A DNA stretch of 64,000 nucleotides from NCBI GenBank assembly GCA_027063785.1, contig JAMORC010000024.1, positions 62,001 through 126,000 of the forward strand, given 5' to 3'. The position numbers and the translations under genes are program-made. Below the pieces are notes generated by a model, which saw nothing but the letters and a program-made list of their open reading frames with translations, was not told the DNA's origin and did no database searches. Numbering within the stretch: position 1 is the first letter of the stretch; the number at the start of each line of letters is the position of its first letter. The stretch is from Desulfurobacteriaceae bacterium (GTDB lineage Bacteria; Aquificota; Aquificia; Desulfurobacteriales; Desulfurobacteriaceae). Shown in pieces: positions 4,678-16,709 of the stretch.

Positions 4678-5396
4678 ATCCCCTGCTTATTGACATCGGG
4701 AATACCCTGACAAAGGTTGTAGTTAAAGGGGAGAAAGGTTTTAAAGTTGTTTTTGAGCTTGATACGGCAAGGGTAAAGGAAACCCCGGATCTCCTTATTA
4801 ATAGAATAACGGGAAAAGAACTCGTCGTTTCCTCTGTAGTTGCTGATTTGAGTGACGTAATTGAAAAGGAGATTCCCTCATCTCTAATAGTTTCTCCAGA
4901 ACTGAGACTTCCCATAACTATAAGTTATAAATCTCCACAGTCCCTCGGAGCTGACAGGATAGCTGCCGCCTGTGGAAGTCTTGATTTCTATGAGAGTTCA
5001 ATAGTTGTGATGATGGGAACGGCTACCGTAATAGATCTAATAGTTGACAGGAGGTTCGAAGGAGGGGCAATACTGCCCGGAATAGGTATGTCCATCGATT
5101 GTCTTTCGGAGAGGACGAGCAAGCTCCCCAGGTTAGGGGAATTTCGTCAGGTTGATTTTCCCGGAAAGTCAACAGAAGAGTCAATTATGGCCGGGATAAC
5201 GCTTATGGTTTCGGGTGCCGTCGGGAAAGTTAAGGAAAGGTTTAACCTGCCCGTGCTCGTTACCGGGGGTTTTGCCGGTTCTGTGAAAATCGAAGGAAGG
5301 GTTGTAAAAGACCTTATTTTCAGGGGACTTTACAGGATATGGGAATTAAACCGGGGGAAATCCCCCGGAAAGTTTACTTGCCGTAAATTTCCTTAG
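4674..5396 (+). CDS. coaX: Type III pantothenate kinase
   Basis: A 240-residue kinase of the ASKHA fold that phosphorylates pantothenate, the first step of coenzyme A synthesis. The phosphate-1 motif DIGNT at residues 7-11, the GADRIAAA pantothenate-site segment near 92, and GTATVIDLI (phosphate-2) near 118 identify the type III (CoaX) family. The start overlaps the argJ stop by four bases, so translation is coupled. The last 23 bases overlap the convergent cytochrome gene. A perfect GC-rich hairpin (5351-5368) lies inside its 3' end. Confidence 0.93.
   Translation: MNPLLIDIGNTLTKVVVKGEKGFKVVFELDTARVKETPDLLINRITGKELVVSSVVADLSDVIEKEIPSSLIVSPELRLPITISYKSPQSLGADRIAAACGSLDFYESSIVVMMGTATVIDLIVDRRFEGGAILPGIGMSIDCLSERTSKLPRLGEFRQVDFPGKSTEESIMAGITLMVSGAVGKVKERFNLPVLVTGGFAGSVKIEGRVVKDLIFRGLYRIWELNRGKSPGKFTCRKFP
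5351..5368 (-). terminator. Intrinsic terminator after the nap operon
   Basis: A perfect 8-bp stem (CCGGGGGA / TCCCCCGG) with an AA centre lies 6 bases beyond the stop of the small cytochrome gene in the minus direction and is followed there by TTTAATT. It sits inside the coaX coding region, so the convergent genes share it. Confidence 0.65.
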
Positions 5397-5628
5397 CTGC
5401 ATCTTGAAGAGCTTTAACGTTGCTCTTGAAAGCAGCCATCATTGGGTTAGTTGAGTTTTGAGCAGCCTTTACAAAAGCCTTTGCAGTTTTAAACTTTGCT
5501 TTGAGCTGGTCTTTGTTTGGAGCCATTGCACCGTTGTGACATCCGGCACACTGAGTTTCCCAGACGCCGGCCATAGCCGGTGCGGAAAGGAGGGCTGCTA
5601 CTGCAAAAGCTCCCAATACTTTTCTCAT
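5374..5628 (-). CDS. Small periplasmic monoheme cytochrome c
   Basis: An 84-residue precursor with a clear Sec signal peptide (cleavage after AMA at residue 20). The mature part is about 64 residues with one heme site, CAGCH at 27-31, close to the N-terminus as in class I cytochromes c. The N-P-M-M segment near residues 61-64 may provide the axial methionine. It follows napH by 76 bases on the same strand, with a strong AGGAGG ribosome site, and is the last gene before a terminator. Its position suggests it is a soluble electron carrier for the nitrate or nitrite reducing enzymes; that role is an inference. Confidence 0.85.
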   Translation of the reverse strand: MRKVLGAFAVAALLSAPAMAGVWETQCAGCHNGAMAPNKDQLKAKFKTAKAFVKAAQNSTNPMMAAFKSNVKALQDAAKEIYGK

Positions 5629-5704
5629 CCCTTACCTCCTGAAGCTTGGTTGTGCGATTTCAATTTATAAAATCCCATTAAAAGTGTCAAACGATTATAA
5701 GTTT

Positions 5705-6568
5705 TTAATCTTCCTTAAGCTTTACTGGAGGCGAGAGCCTTATAAAACCGCTGTCCCTCCAGACGAATTTGAGAGCATCCGTCGGACAGGCATCCACGCA
5801 CTCGGCACAGTTCCAGCAGTAAACCGTTTGACTTTCTCCGACGCTCGGTTTAATTCCCATCGGACACCTTGTATCGCAGACTTTGCAGCCCACGCACTTC
5901 GCAGCATCGTACTTTATAACCAGCTGCCTCCTCTTTCCGATAAGGGCAAGTACTGCTCCCAGTGGGCAGAGGTAACGACAGAAAAACCTTCTCGTAAGCA
6001 GGTTCAAGAGAAGAACTATGACGACAATCCAAACTTCAACAGTAATGACTTTGTAGAAGGCGTAGAACATCGTCTCCCTTCCGACAAGCCCCGGAGGAGA
6101 CCACCAGACGAACATCGGGTATCCGACCATCATTGTAACCATAAGTTCGGCAACGAGGGTAAACCATAAAGCACGTTTCGAAAGCCTTATTAAATCTTTC
6201 CTGTATTTAAGCTTGCTTCCCCATTTAGGAATAAGGCCGAGGATTTTGTCTGTCAGCAGGGAGAGAAACTCAATCGGACACATCCAGCTGCAGAAAACTC
6301 TTCCCATCAGGAAGGCGAGGGTAACGGGTATGACCATACCGACTAAGGAAGGCATGTAGAAGAACTTTGCTGTGAGTATTGATTCAATCCCCTCAAGGGG
6401 CGAAACTACCCAGAGGTTGCCGACTCCGAGAGACTGGAACCAGCCCTGAACCAGGTTAATGTCGTAGTGGTAGTTGAGAAATGGGTTGATAACTACCGTT
6501 AAGAAGCAGGCTGTTAGAAAGGCATAGCGCCAGATTGTTATCCTTTTCCAGAAGCTTCTCTTTGCCAC
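5705..6568 (-). CDS. napH: Quinol dehydrogenase membrane subunit NapH
   Basis: A 287-residue membrane protein with four predicted transmembrane helices. Two CxxxCP motifs, one at the end of a helix in each half (CSWMCP and CRYLCP), are typical of NapH, and two ferredoxin-type 4Fe-4S sites (CVGCKVCDTRCP and CWNCAECVDACP) lie in the C-terminal part. NapH with NapG oxidises menaquinol and passes electrons toward the periplasmic nitrate reductase. The start is GTG at 6568 with an upstream GAGG. It follows napG by 13 bases. Confidence 0.92.
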   Translation of the reverse strand: MAKRSFWKRITIWRYAFLTACFLTVVINPFLNYHYDINLVQGWFQSLGVGNLWVVSPLEGIESILTAKFFYMPSLVGMVIPVTLAFLMGRVFCSWMCPIEFLSLLTDKILGLIPKWGSKLKYRKDLIRLSKRALWFTLVAELMVTMMVGYPMFVWWSPPGLVGRETMFYAFYKVITVEVWIVVIVLLLNLLTRRFFCRYLCPLGAVLALIGKRRQLVIKYDAAKCVGCKVCDTRCPMGIKPSVGESQTVYCWNCAECVDACPTDALKFVWRDSGFIRLSPPVKLKED

Positions 6569-6581
6569 GGCTACTACCTCT

Positions 6582-7259
6582 TTACGATTTCTTTATGTCT
6601 TCGAGCTTAATTTCCTTAATTTTCTTCCACTTAATCGGTTCTATTCTTATGGCCTTCTGGCCGTTGTTTTCCGGGTATTGGTCGGCAATGCAGGAGTAAG
6701 CGCATATACCGCAACCGGTACAGTTTTCTTCAACTATGTAAGGCCTGAAGTCGTGGTCTATTTTTATTGCAATTCCGGAGAACGGGCAGACGTTAAAGCA
6801 GGTTTTGCACATAAGCCCCGTTTTTTCCTGCTGCCATGTTACGCAGACCTGCCTGTTGATAACGGCAACGCCCATTCTTACTTCTTCTTTGGCGCAAGGT
6901 ACGAGAGAGCCGGTGGGACAAACGTAAACGCACTTCATACAGAGGTAGCAAGGTTTTTCCATAACGTCAATGTAAGGTGTTCCGGAAAATACTCCGCCGT
7001 TTTTAACGTCAAAGTACTTTATACAGTGATAAGGACAGACTTCACCGCACCTTCCGCAACGTATGCACTTCTGAGCAAAGTACTCTTCAGGGACTGCTCC
7101 CGGAGGTCTCAGGATGTTCGTTCTTATAGGACTTTTGATCATCGTCTTCGGGTTTTTAAACCTCGATAGGTCACAGGAAGAAAGGAATCCGGCCATAAAA
7201 GTGCCGAGGGTAACTTTCAGGAATTCTCTGCGGGTTTCAGTTTTCCTTTCCTTTTTCAT
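6582..7259 (-). CDS. napG: Periplasmic ferredoxin-type protein NapG
   Basis: A 225-residue iron-sulfur protein with a twin-arginine signal (RREFLK at residues 10-15). Four cysteine groups for 4Fe-4S clusters follow: CIRCGRCGEVCP, CYLCMKCVYVCP, a looser third group around MCKTCFNVCP, and CTGCGICAYSC. It works with NapH to deliver electrons from quinol to the nitrate reductase. The ATG at 7259 lies inside the 3' end of napD (23-base overlap). Confidence 0.92.
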   Translation of the reverse strand: MKKERKTETRREFLKVTLGTFMAGFLSSCDLSRFKNPKTMIKSPIRTNILRPPGAVPEEYFAQKCIRCGRCGEVCPYHCIKYFDVKNGGVFSGTPYIDVMEKPCYLCMKCVYVCPTGSLVPCAKEEVRMGVAVINRQVCVTWQQEKTGLMCKTCFNVCPFSGIAIKIDHDFRPYIVEENCTGCGICAYSCIADQYPENNGQKAIRIEPIKWKKIKEIKLEDIKKS

Positions 7260-7608
7260 CCTCGTCTTCTCCGAGCCACATTTTCTCTGCGATTTTCTCG
7301 GCTTTCTTTAAGCCGTGGAATGGATTTTGAGGGATGATTTCCCCCTTTTCAATTTTCTCAAATTCATCCAGGAAATGGGCTTCAACTACGGCAAGCTGGA
7401 GAACTCCGTCTATCTCTCTGATCTGGTGTTCCATTCTCTCAAGGTCTTCGTACCTTTCTCCGTCCAGAACTACAATTATGTAGTAAGCGTTTTCTTCTTC
7501 CTTTAACTCGCCACCGTAGACTTCAACTCCCGGAATTTCCATCAAGGCCTTTTCTACTTGAAATCCCTTGTCCGGTTCAGCGGTAACTACACAACTTACG
7601 ATCGGCAT
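7237..7608 (-). CDS. napD: NapA maturation chaperone NapD
   Basis: A 123-residue cytoplasmic protein with the NapD pattern: an N-terminal beta strand (IVSCVVTAEP), IPGVEVYGGE in the middle and GVLQLAVVEAHF as the last core strand. NapD is the chaperone that binds the Tat signal of NapA and holds back export until the molybdenum cofactor is inserted. The C-terminal 35 residues are a charged tail beyond the usual ~85-residue core. Its own promoter seems to lie between it and napA (see 7628-7633), so it need not depend on read-through from napA. Confidence 0.88.
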   Translation of the reverse strand: MPIVSCVVTAEPDKGFQVEKALMEIPGVEVYGGELKEEENAYYIIVVLDGERYEDLERMEHQIREIDGVLQLAVVEAHFLDEFEKIEKGEIIPQNPFHGLKKAEKIAEKMWLGEDEDEKGKEN

Positions 7609-7627
7609 ATCACACTCCTATACTGAA

Positions 7628-7633
7628 ATTATA
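7628..7633 (-). promoter_or_regulatory. Probable promoter (-10) for napDGH
   Basis: On the minus strand a perfect TATAAT lies about 20 bases upstream of the napD ATG and just after the terminator that follows napA. No good -35 hexamer is visible at 16-18 bases, so it may need an activator. Confidence 0.45.
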
Positions 7634-7663
7634 TTCTGGAACTTGAATATAAGGGGTAAATAA

Positions 7664-7690
7664 AAAGGAGGGGGACTTGCCCCCTCCTTT
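7664..7690 (-). terminator. Strong intrinsic terminator between napA and napD
   Basis: An 11-bp perfect stem (AAAGGAGGGGG / CCCCCTCCTTT) with a 5-base loop starts 6 bases after the napA stop. In the minus direction it is followed by TTTTTATTT. It separates napCMA from napDGH. Confidence 0.85.
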
Positions 7691-7695
7691 CAAGA

Positions 7696-10353
7696 TTATC
7701 CGAGGTAAGGATGAGCTTCTTTCGGATCGATTTCGGAGTTGTGCTTGTAGCCGCCGCCGACCTTTTCCATCTTGACCAAGAAAGACTTGAGTGGTCTTGC
7801 GGGAGCGTACTTCTTAATGCGGCAAGCACAGATCTTAAACTCGGGCTGCTTGGAACCGGGGTCGAAGGCATCGATGGTACAGAAGTTGATCATCCTGTCC
7901 TTATCCTGATCGTACCAGTAAACGAAGACCATTCCCTCCATCGGGCCTTCTTCGGTGGAGATTCTGGCGGGAAGGATGTTCTTACCGCGGCGTGTTTCAA
8001 CGAGAACGAGGTCACCGGGCTGAATTCCGAGCCTTTGAGCATCCTTGGGATGGATTTCAACCCAAGCTGTCGGGTAGTCCATCATAAGTTCGGGAATACG
8101 ACCGGTCATTGAAGCAGTATGCCAGTGGTCGATAACCCTTCCCGTGGAGAGGTAGAACGGATACTCTGCATCTGGCGGCTCGGCAGGACCCTTGTAAGGC
8201 CTGAGCCAGATCCAGAACTTGTGATCTTTATGGAGGTGTCCGTAATCAACGACTTTCCAGCCCTTGAGACCGTGTTTCTTAACAAACTCCGTAGCAAGTG
8301 GATCTTTCCCGACAACGAACCTTCTCCTTGTTCCACCCTTTCTTGCAATCTCAACAGTAGGTGCAGGCCACTGAACACCGTCGGGCCTTTCAAGGAGAAC
8401 TTCATAAGTAGCACCTGCAAGGGTGGAGTCCCTTCCTTTTGTAACTTTTCCTGCGTATTCCTCCCAAACCTTCTTGGCAAGGAGGTACCAAGGATCTTTC
8501 TCGGCAGCCTCAATAAACGGAGCTACGCACTGGTAAACGGCCTTTGCCCTTGCGCGGAGCTTCGGATCCCTCTCCTTCTTGAGCTTCTTGGCGAGTACCT
8601 GACCGAGCTTAACGAGCATCCATAGCTCGGGCATTGCCTGTCCCGGAGCCTTAACGGCCTTCGGAGTGAGCTGGGAGCGACGTTCTGTACAACCGTAGAC
8701 TCCCGTCTTTTCAAAGTGGAATGCACAGGGGAGTATCATGTTTGCAAGCTCAGAAGTCCTTGTGGGGAAGATGTCTGTAACGACGACAAATACGTCATCC
8801 CTTGCAAATCCTTCCCTGAACCTCCTCATGTTGGGGAGAGACTGGAGAGGAGACGTCTCGTTAACCCAGATGAAGTGGATGGGCTTAAGTCCCGGGAACC
8901 TTCTTCTATCCTCTTCGGTGTAGGAGATAGCAGAGAACATCTTAACTGTGTGGTAACCGGGTTTCGGAGGAATCGTTCCCTTGGGAACGCCCCAGATCTT
9001 CTCAAGCTGAGCCCTGTGTTTGGGATTCTTAACTACCCTGTGGCCGGGCAGGATGTGACAGAGTCCTCCACCCTCACGAACACCACCGCATGCGTTGGGT
9101 TGTCCCGTAAGGGAAAGCGGATCTGCACCGTCCTTACAGATGTTTCCTGTTAAGAGGTGGAGGTTTGTAACGAGGTTGTTAACCCATACACCGCGGGTCC
9201 TCTGGTTGAGACCCATCGTCCAGATGGAAAGGACTTTTGTCTTCGCAAAGCGCCTTGCCACTTTCTTGATCATTTCGGGAGTAATGTTACCGCCACAGAT
9301 TTCAGCGGCGTATTCGGGAGTGTACTTCTGGAGGAACCTCTTATACTCCTCGAAGGAAACTTGATGTCCTATAAGAGGAACCTTGTCCTTACCTTTGGAG
9401 AAGATGTGGAATGAACAGTACTTCTCGACAAATTCCTTATCATAAAGACCTTCGTTGACGATAACGTGGGCAAGGGCGTTAAGGAGTGCAAGGTCTGTAC
9501 CGGGCTTAAACTGCATGTGAATGTCTGCAATCTTAGAAGTAGGTGAAACCCTCGGGTCAACGTTAATAACCATAACCTCCTGAGGGTTGGAGAGCTTACG
9601 CTTCATAATACGACGGTAAACGATCGGGTGACACTCGGCAGTGTTGGAACCGATGATGAAGATGGTATCTGCCTCGTCAATATCGGCAAATCCACCGGCG
9701 GGTTCGTCGGTTCCGTAGGATGTCAGGTATCCACCGACAGCAGATGCCATACAAAGCCTCGGGTTACCCTCAACGTGGTTGGAACCGAGGCACCTCCAGA
9801 ACTTCTGGAAGAGGTAGGTTTCCTCTGTCAAAGCCTGACCGGAACCGTAGTAAGCAATTCCGGTCCATCCCATCGGGCCCCACTCGCCCTTCTTAATGGC
9901 TTTGATCATCTCATCGGCAATGATGTCGAAAGCCTTGTCCCAGGAAATTGGCTTGAAAGGTTCCTTTTTGCTCTTCCTGTAAAGGGGCTGTGTGAGCCTG
10001 TCGGGATGCCTGAAGAGCTTGTAAAAGAGCATTCCTTTCATGCAGAGGAAACCGAAGTTAATCTGGGAGTTCTTCTCACCGCGGATAATTGCCGGCTTTC
10101 CGTTTCTGAGGCCGAGCCATACCTTACAACCGGTTCCGCAGAAACGGCAGACACCCCTTACCCACTCTACATTTCCTTCCTTCTTATAAGCGGGGGAGTT
10201 CTTAACCTCCTCGGGAATTTGAGCAAGGCTTTCCCCAGCCTTGGCTTCCTCGAGGGATACTCCGTCAGCCTTTATCTTAAGGTTGACTCCAACCAGAGAA
10301 GCTGCTGTTAAGGCAGCACTCTTTTTGAGGAAGTCTCTCCTTCCAAGTCCCAT
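7696..10353 (-). CDS. napA: Periplasmic nitrate reductase catalytic subunit
   Basis: An 885-residue molybdenum-bisMGD enzyme that reduces nitrate to nitrite in the periplasm. It has a Tat signal (GRRDFLKK at 4-11), a 4Fe-4S site made of C69, C72, C76 and C104 (CxxC-x3-C-x27-C), and the molybdenum ligand cysteine C201 in NPRLCMAS, which is diagnostic of NapA. The frame is open from a TTG at 10365, but GGAGGG at 10358-10363 lies inside those codons, so the ATG at 10353 is the true start. Length is near the upper end for NapA (about 760-930). It is preceded by napM and napC, and no napB is present; NapM or a direct NapC contact must replace it. Confidence 0.97.
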   Translation of the reverse strand: MGLGRRDFLKKSAALTAASLVGVNLKIKADGVSLEEAKAGESLAQIPEEVKNSPAYKKEGNVEWVRGVCRFCGTGCKVWLGLRNGKPAIIRGEKNSQINFGFLCMKGMLFYKLFRHPDRLTQPLYRKSKKEPFKPISWDKAFDIIADEMIKAIKKGEWGPMGWTGIAYYGSGQALTEETYLFQKFWRCLGSNHVEGNPRLCMASAVGGYLTSYGTDEPAGGFADIDEADTIFIIGSNTAECHPIVYRRIMKRKLSNPQEVMVINVDPRVSPTSKIADIHMQFKPGTDLALLNALAHVIVNEGLYDKEFVEKYCSFHIFSKGKDKVPLIGHQVSFEEYKRFLQKYTPEYAAEICGGNITPEMIKKVARRFAKTKVLSIWTMGLNQRTRGVWVNNLVTNLHLLTGNICKDGADPLSLTGQPNACGGVREGGGLCHILPGHRVVKNPKHRAQLEKIWGVPKGTIPPKPGYHTVKMFSAISYTEEDRRRFPGLKPIHFIWVNETSPLQSLPNMRRFREGFARDDVFVVVTDIFPTRTSELANMILPCAFHFEKTGVYGCTERRSQLTPKAVKAPGQAMPELWMLVKLGQVLAKKLKKERDPKLRARAKAVYQCVAPFIEAAEKDPWYLLAKKVWEEYAGKVTKGRDSTLAGATYEVLLERPDGVQWPAPTVEIARKGGTRRRFVVGKDPLATEFVKKHGLKGWKVVDYGHLHKDHKFWIWLRPYKGPAEPPDAEYPFYLSTGRVIDHWHTASMTGRIPELMMDYPTAWVEIHPKDAQRLGIQPGDLVLVETRRGKNILPARISTEEGPMEGMVFVYWYDQDKDRMINFCTIDAFDPGSKQPEFKICACRIKKYAPARPLKSFLVKMEKVGGGYKHNSEIDPKEAHPYLG

Positions 10354-10382
10354 CGTGCCCTCCAATTAAAATTTTTAATTGT

Positions 10383-10793
10383 TTACTTAGCTCCAAAGTC
10401 CTTTGCTGTTTTAATTTTCTTTACACCACTACCGTGGAACTCAAAGATATGCTCGTTGTGGCAAGTCCAGCACTTAAAGCCGGGGGTCTTTTTCTGCATT
10501 GTTTCGACTTCGTGATAGTGGCAGGCAGCACACTTATCAATAGGCGGAGTCTTGTGGAAGTCCTCGAGTGTTCCGTGACACTGGAAGCACCTAACGTTGG
10601 CAACAGCGTGTTTCGAGTGAGCCCATTCCTGATAGACTTTCGGAGTTGTCTGCTGGTGGCAAACTCTACACTGCTGCTGCTGAGGTGGCATGTTCTTGAT
10701 AACGTTTGGAGGAACCGGATGTTGATCTGCCATTGCTGATGCGCTTCCTACCAGCAGGAAGCCCGACAGCAGAGCTAACGTTTTGACTCTCAC
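10383..10793 (-). CDS. napM: Tetraheme cytochrome c NapM
   Basis: A 136-residue secreted cytochrome with four heme sites: CRVCH 42-46, CFQCH 69-73, CAACH 88-92 and CWTCH 108-112, after a signal peptide cleaved near residue 20 (ASA). Histidines spaced between the sites can give bis-histidine ligation. The start is a GTG at 10793 with GGGGAGG 6 bases upstream; an in-frame TTG further up overlaps that site and is less likely. It sits between napC and napA, the position of napM in napCMADGH operons, where it is thought to bridge NapC to NapA in the absence of NapB. Confidence 0.92.
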   Translation of the reverse strand: MRVKTLALLSGFLLVGSASAMADQHPVPPNVIKNMPPQQQQCRVCHQQTTPKVYQEWAHSKHAVANVRCFQCHGTLEDFHKTPPIDKCAACHYHEVETMQKKTPGFKCWTCHNEHIFEFHGSGVKKIKTAKDFGAK

Positions 10794-10824
10794 TTTACAC
10801 CTCCCCAAAAGCGTTGTTTAGTTA

Positions 10825-11376
10825 TTACTCTCCTTGTTCCCCTTCCTTCTTACCAAAAAATTCCTTCAACTTCTGCTCAAAATCAAAGCCGTGTCCGACG
10901 TACCAGTGGCAGGTTAGGCAATTCCCCTGGATTTCTCCGCTTTTAAGTTTTTGGTGCATTATGTTGTCTGGAAGCGCCTCGTGACAGTGTTCACAGTTAG
11001 AAACGAAAACGTAGTGATTTCTTTCCTTCCTTTTCTCTACCCAGTGTTCTGCGTCGTTCATATAGCCGCCGTGGAAGATATGGCCCATGAAGTCCCTTGC
11101 TCCTGATAGCCCTTTTGTGAAGAGGTAAGAGACTACGTTATCGTGGGGAAGGTGACAGCTTGTACAGGCTGCCCTGACGGCTCCTCTCTTGTTTCCAAGA
11201 GGGCCGTGTGGTCCCCTTTCCCAGCTCTCGTACATCGGTTTCATTTCGTGGCAGGAACCGCAAAAAGAAGGCTGCCCCGTCGACTCTACCATCTGGGCGG
11301 ATATAAGAGCTACAACTCCACCTATTATGAGGCCGGTTATCCCGCCCAGTAGGAAGGTCTTTTTCTTCTCGTTCAT
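10825..11376 (-). CDS. napC: Membrane-anchored tetraheme quinol dehydrogenase, NapC/NrfH family
   Basis: A 183-residue protein with one N-terminal transmembrane anchor (about residues 8-27) and four heme sites: CGSCH 39-43, CTSCH 71-75, CEHCH 128-132 and CLTCH 153-157. The MKPMYESW stretch after heme 1 supplies the methionine typical of NapC/NrfH. It oxidises menaquinol and hands electrons to periplasmic cytochromes. It is the first gene of napCMADGH and has its own sigma-70-like promoter at 11398-11425. It could serve both NapA and the Hao-like proteins upstream; that sharing is an inference. Confidence 0.93.
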   Translation of the reverse strand: MNEKKKTFLLGGITGLIIGGVVALISAQMVESTGQPSFCGSCHEMKPMYESWERGPHGPLGNKRGAVRAACTSCHLPHDNVVSYLFTKGLSGARDFMGHIFHGGYMNDAEHWVEKRKERNHYVFVSNCEHCHEALPDNIMHQKLKSGEIQGNCLTCHWYVGHGFDFEQKLKEFFGKKEGEQGE

Positions 11377-11397
11377 GCTACCTCCTCGTCAATTATT

Positions 11398-11425
11398 AAT
11401 TTATCAAAACTACAGAAAGAGTCAA
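11398..11425 (-). promoter_or_regulatory. Promoter of the nap operon
   Basis: On the minus strand TTGACT (11420-11425) and TAAATT (11398-11403) are separated by 16 bases and sit 22 bases upstream of the napC ATG. A perfect palindrome ATATGCATAT lies about 25 bases further upstream (11450-11459) and could be an operator. Confidence 0.6.
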
Positions 11426-11530
11426 AGTCGAAATTGTATCTATGATGATATATGCATATTCAGCTGGCAGAAGCTATTTTAGCAGAATAGTAAATCAAAA
11501 GACAAGAGGATTAAGTTTTTTTTATATTTG

Positions 11531-12019
11531 CTAATAATCCTGGTCTTCAAAGTAATGCTTAAGGGATTTTACTTCTGGTGCTTCAGGCTTTAAGCTTAAA
11601 AGCTGTGAGTAGCACTCAAAAGCCTTTCCTTCATTCCCCCTTTTGATGTAAAGCTGTGTGGCTTTTAGAAAATCATTAAAAGCCTTTTCCTTCTTTTCTT
11701 CCGCCAGCTCTATAATCCCCCTTAAGTGGTAAACCCTCGGGTCTTCAGGAGAACAGGTTTTTTCTGCTTTTTTTATTTCTTCTTCTGCTGAGCCGTAGTC
11801 TGAAACGGATATGTATTGGTCAGCAAAAAGGAGATGTCTCGTACAGGGATCTAAAGAATTGGGATCAACCGGAAGGGAGGTTATCCCTTCAACCGATCTT
11901 TTTTGAGATAGAGATCCTCCGAGGGGAGAGGGTTGGGGCTTATAGGAAATAGAACTTTGATTTCCTCCAGTTGTGCAACCGAAGGCAAGGAGGGGAAGAA
12001 AGAAGAAAAGCTTACGCAT
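11531..12019 (-). CDS. Small lipoprotein with TPR-like repeats
   Basis: A 162-residue lipoprotein: hydrophobic signal and lipobox LAFGC (cysteine 15), then a low-complexity linker rich in Ser, Gln and Pro. From residue about 55 on are helical pairs of the TPR kind (LLFADQYISVSDYGSAEEEIKKAE, VYHLRGIIELAEEKKEKAFNDFLKATQLY, KAFECYSQLLSLKPEAPEV). It overlaps the end of the preceding TPR gene by 8 bases, so the two are translated together, between the first Hao-like gene and napC. It may be a periplasmic scaffold for cytochromes or their maturation; no function can be assigned. Confidence 0.75.
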   Translation of the reverse strand: MRKLFFFLPLLAFGCTTGGNQSSISYKPQPSPLGGSLSQKRSVEGITSLPVDPNSLDPCTRHLLFADQYISVSDYGSAEEEIKKAEKTCSPEDPRVYHLRGIIELAEEKKEKAFNDFLKATQLYIKRGNEGKAFECYSQLLSLKPEAPEVKSLKHYFEDQDY

Positions 12020-12914
12020 CTTTTCCCTGCCCCAGTTTCTTTAAGTATTTAGAGTTCGGATTTAGCTGTTTTAACCGTTTAATGATTTCCTTGTAAGCTT
12101 CAGTATCTCCCTGCTTTTTAAACAGGACGGCAGCCCTGTAGTAGGCACTTTCAGCTGCTTCAGAAGATTCCCCTTCACTTTCTGCGGCTATGCCGCTAAA
12201 GATGTTGCCGAGTTGGTAATGAGCAAGGGCATTTTCCGGATCAACTTTGACTGCTTCGTTTATGTCCCTGAGGGCAGCAGATAGGTACTTAAGCCTCTCC
12301 TTGTCTGCCTTATCGGAGGCTTCTTTTGCTTTCATGAAGAGGTTGTCAAGTTCACTCTCCTTAACTTTCATTTTCCTTTTAAGGTCTGAAAATTGCTTTT
12401 TCTCCTTTTCGTTCAGGCCTACCAGCTTGCTTTTCATGTAGAGGTTCATAAGTTCGTTTATTTGGACGAAGTCAAAACCTCTTTTCTGGAGTTTTTTGTA
12501 GAAACTCTCGTAAAGCTTTTTAGCCTCACCATCGTTAACCGTAAGCGACTTTTTGAACTCCAGCATTCCTTTAAGCATCAGCAAGTCAGACTTTACCTGG
12601 TAAATCTTTTTCCTTTTAAGTCGAGCTTCCTTTTTCGTTGCATTTGGGACTGTTGCATTCGGGTTTTCTCTATAGAGCGGTTCTATTTCTTCCAAGGCTT
12701 TGTTTGTTTTTTCTATCCCTTCCTCGTATCTGTGGTTGTGGTAATCGCTGTAAATGCAGTAGAAGTAGACCGGAGGGTTTTTAAGAAACGAACTCGGACA
12801 CTTTAGTTCTTTTTTCTGTCTTTCTTCAATTTTTTTCTGGAGCTTATCCGTTTGCGCAAGAGAGGAGTTAAGCAAAGCCATCGAAAGGACGGCAGCGGTT
12901 AGAAGCCTCTTCAT
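12012..12914 (-). CDS. Secreted TPR-domain protein
   Basis: A 300-residue protein with a Sec signal peptide (cleavage after SLAQ at about residue 21) and a mostly helical, lysine- and glutamate-rich body. TPR units are clearest near the C-terminus: ALAHYQLGNIFSGIAAE followed by AAESAYYRAAVLFKKQGDTEAYKEII. Two cysteines near residues 39 and 53 could form a disulfide. It starts 63 bases after the first Hao-like gene, beyond a terminator, with a good AGGAGG site, and is followed by a TPR lipoprotein. A structural or assembly role in the cytochrome-rich periplasm is plausible but not shown. Confidence 0.75.
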   Translation of the reverse strand: MKRLLTAAVLSMALLNSSLAQTDKLQKKIEERQKKELKCPSSFLKNPPVYFYCIYSDYHNHRYEEGIEKTNKALEEIEPLYRENPNATVPNATKKEARLKRKKIYQVKSDLLMLKGMLEFKKSLTVNDGEAKKLYESFYKKLQKRGFDFVQINELMNLYMKSKLVGLNEKEKKQFSDLKRKMKVKESELDNLFMKAKEASDKADKERLKYLSAALRDINEAVKVDPENALAHYQLGNIFSGIAAESEGESSEAAESAYYRAAVLFKKQGDTEAYKEIIKRLKQLNPNSKYLKKLGQGKDA

Positions 12915-12941
12915 TAAGTCCTCCTGAGGAGCAGAATAAAA

Positions 12942-12962
12942 GGGGAGGGAAGTACCCTCCCC
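12942..12962 (-). terminator. Terminator after octaheme gene 1
   Basis: A perfect 8-bp GC stem (GGGGAGGG / CCCTCCCC) with a 5-base loop, followed in the minus direction by TTTTATT, lies 14 bases after the stop of the Hao-like gene. Confidence 0.8.
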
Positions 12963-12976
12963 GGTTAATTCCGGAG

Positions 12977-14365
12977 TTACTGAGCAGCCTCTCCGGCAGC
13001 CTTTCCGTAACGCTTGACGTAGAACTCTGCAATCTTCCTAAGCTCGGACTTGGGCATACCCTTGAACCACTTGTGCTCGGGAGTGCTGAAGAGCTTCTTC
13101 TTGAACTCTGCCCAGTCTTTCTTGTCCTTCCTGCTTCCCTTCTCCGCAACGATCTTGTCGGCTTCGGGAAGGAGCTTGTAGTAGAAGTTGTAAGCTACTT
13201 CAAAGAGTCCGTGCCAGTGTGTCCAGTCGGGAGCCATCATGGAAGCACCGTGCCTTGCCCTACGACCTTCGTGGTGCCAGAGGAGGAAGTATTCCCACTC
13301 AATCTTGTCGTTAAACGGAGTAGGATCGATGAGCTTCCTGCTCTTGAGGAACTTCATAACCTGAGCTGCAGGCTTAGCGAACTTCTCGTTGTAGAGCTTA
13401 ACAAGTTCGTCAAACTGGTAGTAGAAGGAGTCAACCCAAAGCTTCTGGTGGCAAGCGGCACAAACCTTCTTCATCTCGGCACGCTTGGCCTTCCAGTTCT
13501 CCTTGTGCTTGGAGATAGGCGGCCTGAGGGTCCAGGAAAGCCTTGCACCGACGTCGTGGGTTGCTTTAGCACCGGTTACGGAAGCTCCCATGTGACAGGT
13601 TACACAGTTGGGAGCCTGGTAGTAGTCCTCGCCGAGAACCCACTTAGCCCTGTCGAGGGTCTGCTCGATTTCAGACTGGTGAGCCTTGTAAGCGATACCG
13701 TGCTTGGAGAGTTCCCAAACTTCGATTTGCGGATGGTCGGGACCCTGGTGGCACTTACCGCACATGTCGGGTTCACGAACCTGCTTCAGGCTGAAAGAGT
13801 GCCTGAAGTGGCAGGCAGCACAGTTTCCGAGGGAGCCGTCGGGGTTAACCCTTCCGATACCTTCGTTAGGCCATGGTCCTGCAATAGGAAGACCGTTCTT
13901 TGTGGGTATGGTTCTACCGTGACACTGAGCACAACCGAGGTTGAAAAGGGGTTCTCCTTCTACGATTCTACCGAGAACGTTGTCAAGAGAACCGACGAAC
14001 TGAGCAGCCTTTGCGTGATGGGACTCTGTAACTTCTTTTGCTTCCTTGGGGTGACACTTCCCGCAGTCGAGGGGAGAAACGATTGTAGAGATGGTGAAGC
14101 CGAAGTGCTGGAATGCATCCTTTTCGCCCTTGTTGGCCATGTGGCACTCGTAACAACCAACTCCGGCCTCTGCGTGCTTGCTGATTCCCCACTGCTGTGT
14201 CAGGGCAGGGTTCATGCCCTTGTGGCATCCCAGACACGCCTGGGTTTGTGGAGAAATGTTCCTGAGGGCTGCACTGGCGTCGGTAGTATTAAGACCTACA
14301 ACTGCCGCAGCAGCGAAGGTAACCGCCAGCAGCCCTGTGCGGAGCTTGCTGAGCCTCCCTCTCAT
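12977..14365 (-). CDS. Octaheme hydroxylamine-oxidoreductase-like cytochrome 1
   Basis: A 462-residue secreted multiheme cytochrome with a signal peptide (cleavage after ASA near residue 32) and eight heme sites: CLGCH 44, CYECH 71, CGKCH 101, CAQCH 145, CAACH 182, CGKCH 202, CVTCH 254 and CAACH 302. The spacing and the later segment with HHEGRR and MMAPDWTHWHG (364-386) mark the octaheme HAO family. There is no C-terminal membrane anchor. In bacteria with NapCMADGH and no NrfA, related 'epsilon-Hao' proteins are thought to reduce nitrite or hydroxylamine. The true start is the ATG at 14365 behind AAAGGAGG; the frame stays open 24 codons further up. It has its own promoter and terminator. Direction of catalysis and substrate are inferred. 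Confidence 0.88.
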   Translation of the reverse strand: MRGRLSKLRTGLLAVTFAAAAVVGLNTTDASAALRNISPQTQACLGCHKGMNPALTQQWGISKHAEAGVGCYECHMANKGEKDAFQHFGFTISTIVSPLDCGKCHPKEAKEVTESHHAKAAQFVGSLDNVLGRIVEGEPLFNLGCAQCHGRTIPTKNGLPIAGPWPNEGIGRVNPDGSLGNCAACHFRHSFSLKQVREPDMCGKCHQGPDHPQIEVWELSKHGIAYKAHQSEIEQTLDRAKWVLGEDYYQAPNCVTCHMGASVTGAKATHDVGARLSWTLRPPISKHKENWKAKRAEMKKVCAACHQKLWVDSFYYQFDELVKLYNEKFAKPAAQVMKFLKSRKLIDPTPFNDKIEWEYFLLWHHEGRRARHGASMMAPDWTHWHGLFEVAYNFYYKLLPEADKIVAEKGSRKDKKDWAEFKKKLFSTPEHKWFKGMPKSELRKIAEFYVKRYGKAAGEAAQ

Positions 14366-14399
14366 GTTTCCCTCCTTTCGCAAGATTTTCTCGCTGGAA

Positions 14400-14428
14400 A
14401 TTTTAATAAAAACTTTCGCAACTTGCAA
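14400..14428 (-). promoter_or_regulatory. Promoter of octaheme gene 1
   Basis: On the minus strand TTGCAA (14423-14428) and TAAAAT (14400-14405) are separated by exactly 17 bases, 35 bases upstream of the ATG. This gives the gene its own start of transcription, apart from the SurA-like gene in front. Confidence 0.6.
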
Positions 14429-14440
14429 GATGCACAAATC

Positions 14441-14457
14441 GGTATTTTGGTAATACC
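14441..14457. repeat. Inverted repeat upstream of the octaheme gene 1 promoter
   Basis: GGTATT and AATACC are separated by 5 bases, just upstream of the -35 element. The position fits an activator or repressor site. It is short and may be chance. Confidence 0.35.
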
Positions 14458-14491
14458 TAATATTAAAGTTTCCTTATTAACGGAGTTTGCC

Positions 14492-14986
14492 TTACTTGAT
14501 TAAGACTTCAATTTTATGTTTCTTTTTGAGTTTGGCCAAGAGCTTTTCGAACAGCTCCCGTCTTTTACGGGAAAGAAGCTCTGCGTAAGCCTTTTGCTCG
14601 CTTATCCCTTTTTCTTTGGCGTAAGCCTTTACTTCATCCTGGTTTATTTCGACCCTTTCGTTAATCTCTTTGGTTAAATAGGCAATTATATAAGCTGCGT
14701 CCTGATCAAGGCCGGAGTGAGAACGGAGAACTCCTTCCTTTTTCGAAACTGCCTTCTTTGCCTCTTCAAGGATAATCTTCCTGTCAATGTAGTAATTAAC
14801 AAGCTTTTTGAGACCATCCCTTGTCTCAAGCATCTTTTTATACTTCTCGCCCGGCAGCTGAGAAACGTATTCTTTTATGTCTTCATAAGTCACGGGCTTT
14901 CCGTCAAGGTAAGCAAGGACACTTCCGCCGGCGAAAGAGATAACGGGTGAGATTAAAAACAGGAGCAGTAGCAAAAACCTGTTCAT
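14492..14986 (-). CDS. SurA N-domain-like periplasmic protein without PPIase domain
   Basis: A 164-residue protein with a signal peptide (cleavage near SFAGG, residue 19) and a helical body that starts VLAYLDGKPVTYEDIKEYV and continues with LVNYYIDRKIILEEAKK. This is the pattern of the N-terminal chaperone domain of SurA/PrsA-type peptidyl-prolyl isomerases. The parvulin domain itself is missing: the protein ends after two more helices. It lies between the two octaheme genes, 98 bases after the stop of Hao-like gene 2, with a strong GGAGG site. A periplasmic chaperone for these cytochromes is a reasonable guess and nothing more. Confidence 0.7.
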   Translation of the reverse strand: MNRFLLLLLFLISPVISFAGGSVLAYLDGKPVTYEDIKEYVSQLPGEKYKKMLETRDGLKKLVNYYIDRKIILEEAKKAVSKKEGVLRSHSGLDQDAAYIIAYLTKEINERVEINQDEVKAYAKEKGISEQKAYAELLSRKRRELFEKLLAKLKKKHKIEVLIK

Positions 14987-15038
14987 TTTAAACCTCCTTT
15001 AACTGGACAGGTAACTAATTTAGGCCGCAAAAATAAAA

Positions 15039-15061
15039 GAGGGGAGGCATTGCCTCCCCTC
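15039..15061 (-). terminator. Terminator after octaheme gene 2
   Basis: An 11-bp perfect stem (GAGGGGAGGCA / TGCCTCCCCTC) with a one-base centre, followed in the minus direction by TTTTATTTTT, lies 22 bases after the stop. Confidence 0.88.
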
Positions 15062-15083
15062 AAATAATTTTTGAAACAAATTA

Positions 15084-16709
15084 TTACTTCTTCTTGCCGG
15101 CTTCGAAGAGTGTAGGTGTTCCGGCGTCGTCCAGCAGGTGAATAGCCTGATAGAGCGGGCTGTTGGGGTTCTTGGCGTTAAGTTCGGCAGCTTTACGCTT
15201 CTTGTAAGCTTCGAAGATCGGGTTGTGGCCGAACTTCTTGCCGAGGTACTTGTCGCGGTTGTTGTACCTCTCAAGCCACCTCTGCCATTCCTCTTCGCTG
15301 AGCCAACCCTTCTTGTAAGCAGCCTCGACGTTCTTCTTGACCATCTCCCAGTACTTATCGCCGAGGAGCTTGTAAGCCATAGGTGTCTCGTACATCTCGG
15401 CAGTGACGATGGACCAGACGTTTCCGGGGAAGTCGTAAACCCTGTAGGGGAAGAACTTAAGCGGAGACTTGCTCTCCCAGATCTTCTTGGCTTCAGGTAT
15501 TCCATTCTCGGCAAGGTAGTGGATTGTTTCCATGAGGTCGTACTGGAGTTCCCAGATACCGTGCCACTGGGTGTAGTCGGCGGCCATCATCTCGGCACCC
15601 ATCCTGAACCTACGACCCTCATGGTGCCAGCCGTGGTACATAGCCTTAGCAGGCTGCGGCACCCATCCGCCGTTGATAACTTTCTTGAGCTTCTCGGGGA
15701 TCTTGACAGGGTTGAAGATATCACCGTACTTCTTCGGATTCTTTTCAGCGTACTTCTTAGCAAGGTTGTTCCAGTAAACGAACTGCCTCCTGAGCTCGTT
15801 GTACTGGAGGTTTACAAGGTCCATCTGGAGGAAGTAGTCGGTTACGAAGTTGGGGGAGTGACAGTTCTTACATACAGCTTCCATCCTCTGACGCTTAACT
15901 TTCCAGTCGCCGAGCTTCTCCTTGAACCAGATAGTCCTGTAAGACCAGGGAGCCTGAGATTCCCAAGCAAGCCTTGCACTTACGTTGTGGGTTCCCTCAA
16001 CACCGGGAGCGGCGTCCATGTGACAGGTTGTACATGTCGGAACGGGAATCGGAATTCCCGCCTGTGAGGACTTATAGCCGAGGTCCCACTCCTTGTAGTG
16101 GGTCATAAAGATGTTTCCGTGCTTGGATTCAAGGTACTCCTCAATGTGAGGATGGTCGGGTCCGATGTGACACTCACCACAGGTGTAGGGGTTCCTTGCA
16201 ACTGCAATGTCAAATGTGTGTTTGGGGTGGCAGGCATCACACTCACCTACGCTGCCGTCCCAATGGAGAGCCGTAATGTTGTGACACTGCTCACAGCCGG
16301 CCTTTGTTGCAACGATAGGCTCCCAGATAGCCCTGTCGGCGTTGGCGTAAAGCCAGAAGGGATAGGCGTGCTTACTCTCTGTGAACTCCTTAACCTCTTT
16401 GGGGTGACACATAGAACAATCTTTCGGAGTCGGATGGCTTGCTACAACAGGGCCTCCGGGACACTTGAAAGCGTCTCCGTCACTTTCGCTGGCCCTGTGA
16501 CAGATTGCACAACCTACGCCCATCTTGGCGTGCTTTGACTGAGCCCACTGCTCGATAACTTTGGGTGCCACTCCCTTCTTCAGGTGACACTCAACACAGC
16601 CTTCGGAAGACTTTGGTACCTCCACACCGTTAACGGTAAGAGCGTAAGATGAAGCCCCGAAAACAACGGTGAGGAGGCACGCTTTCAGTGCCGTGCGCAA
16701 TCCCCTCAT
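15084..16709 (-). CDS. Octaheme hydroxylamine-oxidoreductase-like cytochrome 2
   Basis: A 541-residue secreted cytochrome, paralogous to the Hao-like protein at 12977-14365. After a signal peptide ending near residue 23 there are eight heme sites: CVECH 38, CAICH 67, CSMCH 98, CEQCH 139, CDACH 157, CGECH 177, CTTCH 226 and CKNCH 280. The family segment with HHEGRR and MMAADYTQWHG is at 362-384. It has a 150-residue charged C-terminal extension that the first paralogue lacks. Where paralogue 1 has DW, this one has DY (Y379). The start is the ATG at 16709 behind CGGAGGG, not the in-frame ATG 23 codons further up. The best guess is nitrite- or hydroxylamine-reducing enzyme; oxidation of hydroxylamine is possible in principle. 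Confidence 0.88.
   Translation of the reverse strand: MRGLRTALKACLLTVVFGASSYALTVNGVEVPKSSEGCVECHLKKGVAPKVIEQWAQSKHAKMGVGCAICHRASESDGDAFKCPGGPVVASHPTPKDCSMCHPKEVKEFTESKHAYPFWLYANADRAIWEPIVATKAGCEQCHNITALHWDGSVGECDACHPKHTFDIAVARNPYTCGECHIGPDHPHIEEYLESKHGNIFMTHYKEWDLGYKSSQAGIPIPVPTCTTCHMDAAPGVEGTHNVSARLAWESQAPWSYRTIWFKEKLGDWKVKRQRMEAVCKNCHSPNFVTDYFLQMDLVNLQYNELRRQFVYWNNLAKKYAEKNPKKYGDIFNPVKIPEKLKKVINGGWVPQPAKAMYHGWHHEGRRFRMGAEMMAADYTQWHGIWELQYDLMETIHYLAENGIPEAKKIWESKSPLKFFPYRVYDFPGNVWSIVTAEMYETPMAYKLLGDKYWEMVKKNVEAAYKKGWLSEEEWQRWLERYNNRDKYLGKKFGHNPIFEAYKKRKAAELNAKNPNSPLYQAIHLLDDAGTPTLFEAGKKK

Follow-up and report, generated by a model that had tools for sequence, protein, structure and literature searches.

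Growth by nitrate ammonification has been demonstrated for Thermosulfurimonas dismutans and Dissulfuribacter thermophilus (PMC5276818), and Thermovibrio ammonificans is likewise a proven nitrate ammonifier (PMC5441870). For the latter organism, the 2017 paper called the nitrite step open and named NirA (Theam_1000) as a candidate, and a hao gene is absent from its text. Among octaheme cytochromes, the reductive Hao proteins are described as bearing Trp at the position of the cross-linking Tyr of HAO, with Met eight residues earlier (PMC8940962, after Haase et al.), and are reported to be able to reduce nitrite. The gene cluster analysed here lies in a 64,000 nucleotide stretch of DNA (hereafter, the window) from a Desulfurobacteriaceae bacterium (assembly GCA_027063785.1, contig JAMORC010000024.1, positions 62,001 to 126,000). 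It occupies positions 16709–5374 of the window on the minus strand, with the genes transcribed in the order haoB, SurA_N-like, haoA, TPR, TPR, tetraheme membrane cytochrome, napM, napA, napD, napG, napH and monoheme cytochrome. Together these genes probably make up a complete system for periplasmic nitrate ammonification, with octaheme cytochromes of the Hao type standing in for NrfA.

The two secreted octaheme cytochromes are HaoA (positions 12977–14365, minus strand; 462 residues) and HaoB (15084–16709, minus strand; 541 residues). Each contains exactly eight CxxCH motifs and a WHHEGRR segment, as described in the first-pass annotation of the window, and both match the Pfam family Multi-haem_cyto (PF13447) far above its cut-off (80.0 and 77.4 bits versus 21.9). 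The Met-x7-Trp signature of reductive Hao is found in HaoA (M376 and W384), in HaoB (MMAADYTQW) and in all HxEGRR-containing relatives examined; its position relative to the Tyr of NeHAO is taken from PMC8940962, the C-terminus of NeHAO lying outside the alignments. Also kept in both proteins is the Asp-His pair (Asp210-His211 in HaoA) that aligns with Asp267-His268 of NeHAO, in the catalytic pocket of HAO.

The predicted structure of HaoA (pLDDT 91) matches most closely, among solved structures, the PDB entry 4QO5 (TM-score 0.70), followed by Kuenenia 6H5L and HAO/HDH, with ONR and NrfA far removed; an earlier prediction from 10 sequences was poor (pLDDT 49) and was set aside. The entry 4QO5, which the literature links to the octaheme cytochrome of Ignicoccus hospitalis, is also the best sequence match for both HaoA (E = 1e-48) and HaoB, but differs from them in having Phe at the signature Trp and Asp-Val at the Asp-His pair. 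The references in the phylogenetic tree were NeHAO, KsHOX, HDH and 6H5L, the last being a reducing HAO-like complex (Kustc0457/Kustc0458) according to its PDB title. HaoA falls within a fully supported clade made up of sequences from the order and a metagenome-assembled genome (MAG) of Nitrospiraceae, HaoB falls in another together with Deltaproteobacteria bacterium IMCC39146, and the HAO/HDH references split off with 98/86 support. Forcing HaoB to group with these references lowers the likelihood by 36.6 log units and is disfavoured (approximately unbiased test, p = 0.012). The first-pass annotation had named a firm position among hydroxylamine oxidisers as grounds for rejecting its proposal; in this tree, which holds no characterised epsilon-Hao, neither protein is placed with NeHAO, KsHOX or HDH. 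No Campylobacterota Hao was present among the best 80 loci with HaoA relatives.

The host, a thermophile of the hydrothermal type, is a member of the Desulfurobacteriales, with a draft genome of 1.57 Mb that is 98.9% complete, and is one of the 24 genomes in our sample of the order, whose matched contigs belong to Thermovibrio, Desulfurobacterium and Desulfurobacteriaceae. The search for other nitrite reductases was aimed at the ammonium-forming enzymes, namely NrfA, siroheme reductases and octaheme tetrathionate reductase (OTR); NirK and NirS do not make ammonium. The best match to NrfA (PF02335) in the host genome is HaoA itself, at 18.4 bits (cut-off 24.1), and nothing passes E 1e-6 across the 24 genomes. 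At E 0.001 the siroheme reductase domain (PF01077) matched nothing in the 24 genomes, while 11 of 14 control genomes gave matches. The cut-off of the OTR model (TIGR04315, 375 bits) is likewise unreached in the order; a distant full-length relative scores about 190 bits in three genomes (G012–G014), and the host genome contains weak partial matches only. The lack of NrfA and of a cytosolic, siroheme-type nitrite reductase, first noted for the window, thus holds genome-wide by profile search, and an NrfA elsewhere in the genome, which would have overturned the earlier proposal, is not found above the cut-off in the host or in the order.

A nap cluster is present in 18 of the 24 genomes, recognized by NapD in 16 and by NapM or NapA at contig ends in the other two (G010 and G018). 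An HxEGRR-type Hao is encoded by 17 of these 18 versus one of the six genomes without nap (only G012; Fisher p = 0.0008), and among genomes at least 90% complete the counts are 13 of 13 versus one of four (p = 0.006). The exception among the nap-bearing genomes, G001, has a completeness of 64%, and the contig that carries its nap genes is broken near napM. The order haoA-TPR-TPR-nrfH-like-napMADGH-cytochrome is found in genera g2, g6, g7 and others, and HaoA is 85–91% identical across most of the family. One nap-bearing genome, which we take to be that of T. ammonificans HB-1, carries haoA upstream of and beside nap; PF01077 was not found in it, leaving the NirA proposal without support there. 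In G016 a separate Hao type of 560 residues lies beside nap in divergent orientation, and the same type is seen at a contig end in G017. Two HaoA copies lie beside nap in G002, and the host and G023 have HaoB in addition to HaoA. The occurrence of different Hao lineages in one slot beside nap is strong, though indirect, evidence for a role in nitrite reduction. Given this co-occurrence, the absence of NrfA, siroheme reductase and full OTR, the reductive signature and the separation from HAO/HDH, the Hao proteins are the best candidates for the conversion of nitrite to ammonium.

Further arrangements of hao genes were seen in the sample and beyond it. The two HaoA-type genes of G002 are in tandem (L092:1110–5270) and share a long, near-identical centre but differ towards the N-terminus, a pattern that suggests duplication or gene conversion; the pair of Hao beside nap in this genome is independent of that in the host. 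In a genome that is presumably Desulfurobacterium thermolithotrophum, two apparently identical octaheme proteins of 508 residues without HxEGRR are encoded about 227 kb apart on one chromosome (L080:7668–9191 and L081:7803–9389). In seven loci from MAGs of Planctomycetota, Myxococcota, Cloacimonadota and Bacteroidota (L131, L136, L147, L151, L175, L188 and L202), a relative of HaoA is encoded close to a NapA-like protein with 34–44% identity to NapA of the window, in some cases with NapG or NapH; these are possibly further nap-hao clusters. Plasmid-borne relatives are few and distant, and none could be confirmed in viral contigs.

The gene for the tetraheme membrane cytochrome (10825–11376, minus strand) encodes a membrane-anchored quinol dehydrogenase of the NapC/NrfH family. 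The first-pass annotation had read the nap genes as napCMADGH and had the Hao proteins fed by NapC. The napMADGH part of that reading stands and a tetraheme donor is present, but the supposed NapC is nearer to NrfH (TIGR03153, 85.5 bits) than to NapC/NirT (TIGR02161, 41.6 bits), both scores being below the curated cut-offs, and the only solved relative found for it is the Desulfovibrio NrfH (2J7A). In the nap-less genome G012, a Hao gene is followed directly by an NrfH-like tetraheme gene, and the cluster (L082:8390–11299) also encodes a C_GCAxxG_C_C-type protein that has a single CxxCH. A tetraheme gene also follows directly after the HaoA relative in Vibrio, Shewanella, Grimontia, Photobacterium and Neiella, where the proteins tested match NapC/NirT, and there is no NapA-like gene near these gammaproteobacterial pairs in the flanks fetched. 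As NapMADGH systems without NapC also exist (PMC5276818), the NrfH-like protein of the window most likely serves Hao. In Grimontia celer the hao-tetraheme pair occurs in two apparently identical tandem copies (L162:4154–11781), from either duplication or an assembly effect.

In the scheme that we propose for substrates, products, electron route and division of labour, NapGH and NapM would supply electrons to monomeric NapA, which would reduce nitrate to nitrite, and the NrfH-like protein would oxidise menaquinol and pass the electrons to HaoA. HaoA would reduce nitrite to ammonium, either entirely by itself or with some hydroxylamine as an intermediate, which cytoplasmic HCP could then finish. 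HaoB would most likely be a second, deeply diverged reductive Hao acting on intermediates of this same pathway; candidate substrates are hydroxylamine, nitric oxide, and nitrite in a different range of concentrations. Several points weigh against this scheme. The roles are assigned from sequence and predicted structure, with activity inferred, and the host genome is a draft of 63 contigs. The association counts make no correction for phylogeny, and relatives of HaoA occur in many phyla, most with no obvious nap neighbour, so the family is not specific to nitrate. The tree lacks characterised epsilon-Hao, its reference proteins are partial and its branches are long. Finally, ammonium and hydroxylamine as the product of Hao are not separable on the basis of HCP, which is encoded in 23 of the 24 genomes, those without nap included.

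The first-pass annotation had proposed that the two Hao proteins together form the step from nitrite to ammonium. Both stand as the best candidates, but not as equal parts: HaoA is the conserved enzyme of the order, and HaoB is an extra in two genomes. Within the order HaoB is encoded only in the host and G023, with 98% protein identity, and no match at E 1e-20 was found beyond the order among the 136 Aquificota genomes searched. Between haoB and haoA is a gene (14492–14986, minus strand) for a secreted, SurA_N-like protein of 164 residues, probably a periplasmic chaperone, with orthologues at the same place in G023 (60% identity) and in Deltaproteobacteria bacterium IMCC39146 (L170; 31%). The assignment is based on synteny and on the G023 copy, whose match to SurA_N_3 (E = 8e-6) falls just short of the Pfam cut-off; the window copy has no significant Pfam match. 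In L170 the trio has the same order and orientation, with 57% identity for HaoB and 48% for HaoA and no nap genes alongside, and the distribution of HaoB outside the Aquificota is drawn from this one locus. Between the host and G023, the synonymous divergence (pS) is 0.44 for haoB and haoA alike, with Ka/Ks of 0.027 and 0.103, respectively, and nonsynonymous divergence about four times lower in haoB. A recent transfer of haoB between these genomes, which the 98% identity might suggest, is unlikely given the equal pS of the two genes and the mere 60% identity of the intervening SurA_N-like protein; the substitution pattern makes shared inheritance under strong constraint the likelier account.

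HaoB might instead be an electron-carrying or structural partner of HaoA in a mixed complex, or an enzyme for another substrate such as a sulfur compound. Its deep separate branch, a C-terminal extension that is long in comparison to HaoA, the lack of the WPNxGIGRxNPDG segment of HaoA and the trio in L170 with no nap genes beside it are consistent with such a role. The eight hemes, the catalytic-pocket Asp-His pair and the Met-x7-Trp signature are, however, all kept, and no neighbour in the cluster points to the use of sulfur; we therefore regard this alternative as possible but doubtful, and a second reductive Hao as the preferred reading of HaoB.

A second alternative is that Hao stops at hydroxylamine, which after uptake is reduced to ammonium by cytoplasmic HCP, as proposed for Nautilia profundicola in the reverse-HURM pathway. 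The full gene set for this route is present in the host, namely Nap, Hao, a quinol dehydrogenase of the NapC/NrfH type and HCP, with NrfA absent, as in Nautilia (PMC3701875). HCP (Prismane, E = 1.5e-149) is, however, encoded outside the cluster, and is found equally in genomes without nap or an HxEGRR-type Hao, so that it has the appearance of a general defence against nitric oxide or hydroxylamine, and its occurrence in 23 of 24 genomes is uninformative as to whether it is the deciding partner. Reductive Hao, moreover, is reported to be capable of reducing nitrite (PMC8940962), and the hydroxylamine route appears rather unlikely in comparison to reduction of nitrite to ammonium by HaoA. It is very improbable that the proteins are true HAO that oxidise hydroxylamine for detoxification, with something unrecognised as the nitrite reductase: they belong to the HAO/PF13447 superfamily, and hydrazine dehydrogenase is the closest of the named NCBIfam models, although their scores of 74 and 68 bits fall short of its cut-off of 900, but they have Trp instead of Tyr at the reported cross-link position, branch apart from HAO/HDH, and are encoded in a cluster without ammonia-oxidation genes that is tied to nap in a nitrate-ammonifying family.

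All of the open reading frames named in the first-pass annotation were confirmed, with the positions it gave and on the minus strand, and three small genes are added to its list: the SurA_N-like gene and two TPR genes between haoA and the NrfH-like gene. TPR protein 1 (12012–12914) is secreted and conserved in this position, and TPR protein 2 (11531–12019) is probably a lipoprotein. Downstream of the NrfH-like gene follow NapM (10383–10808), a small periplasmic tetraheme cytochrome whose gene order is kept in relatives; NapA (7696–10365, with the true start probably at 10353), a Tat-type molybdopterin nitrate reductase of the monomeric type; its chaperone NapD (7237–7608); the ferredoxin-type protein NapG (6582–7259); and NapH (5705–6568), a membrane ferredoxin-type quinol dehydrogenase. 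NapA, NapD, NapG and NapH are the top matches for their proteins, yet score under the NCBIfam curated cut-offs, and the cluster contains no napB. The last gene (5374–5628), kept in most relatives, encodes a small secreted monoheme cytochrome c of 84 residues. The start of a 394-residue protein of G012 with three CxxCH (L082:15740–16924) resembles this cytochrome by eye and the remainder is diheme-peroxidase-like, hinting that the small cytochrome may be an electron-donor domain. The flanking genes are on the opposite strand and seemingly unrelated (PSP1 family, radical SAM, pantothenate kinase and ArgJ). Elsewhere in the host genome (L102, G000:C5:130000–145000), a multiheme cluster that may serve in extracellular electron transfer encodes proteins with 7, 6, 3 and 24 CxxCH.

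The description of the system as poorly known, made in the first-pass annotation, does not hold, as earlier papers have proposed nap with hao in the absence of NrfA for Nautilia, Thermosulfurimonas, Dissulfuribacter and Deferribacter. As in the window, T. dismutans and D. thermophilus have napMADGH without napB, no NrfA, a Hao-like multiheme gene in the cluster and, between hao and napMADGH, two genes whose periplasmic products have no known function (PMC5276818). There, however, hao belongs to a locus of four genes that includes an NrfD-type membrane module, and the paper states that NapC/CycB is lacking (PMC5276818), in contrast to the NrfH-like tetraheme protein and the second Hao with a SurA_N-like protein seen here. 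Nautilia profundicola and some Campylobacter share Nap, Hao, a NapC/NrfH-type quinol dehydrogenase and HCP without NrfA, but Nautilia differs in Nap type and gene order, and its one Hao (NAMH_1280) is apart from nap (0553–0556 and 0559; PMC3701875), whereas the window has two Hao in one cluster. Deferribacter autotrophicus also combines napMADGH and Hao without NrfA, with ammonium as product, but has one Hao, with hcp and a decaheme cytochrome in the cluster (PMC6896113).

Within the order, the napCMADGH operon described for T. ammonificans (PMC5441870) is the same as in the window, and our literature search found no paper describing a hao gene of the Desulfurobacteriaceae. The data point to haoA, found next to nap in virtually all nap-bearing members, as a candidate for the nitrite step of T. 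ammonificans and argue against a siroheme enzyme, and the question can now be tested directly in a cultured organism. In addition, a Hao family that is widespread but for the most part uncharacterised is connected with ammonification, and the natural two-Hao variant may help to show what decides whether an octaheme enzyme yields hydroxylamine or ammonium. In comparison to the published nap-hao systems without NrfA, what is new here is the NrfH-like donor, the one conserved HaoA and, in two genomes, the added HaoB and SurA_N-like protein.

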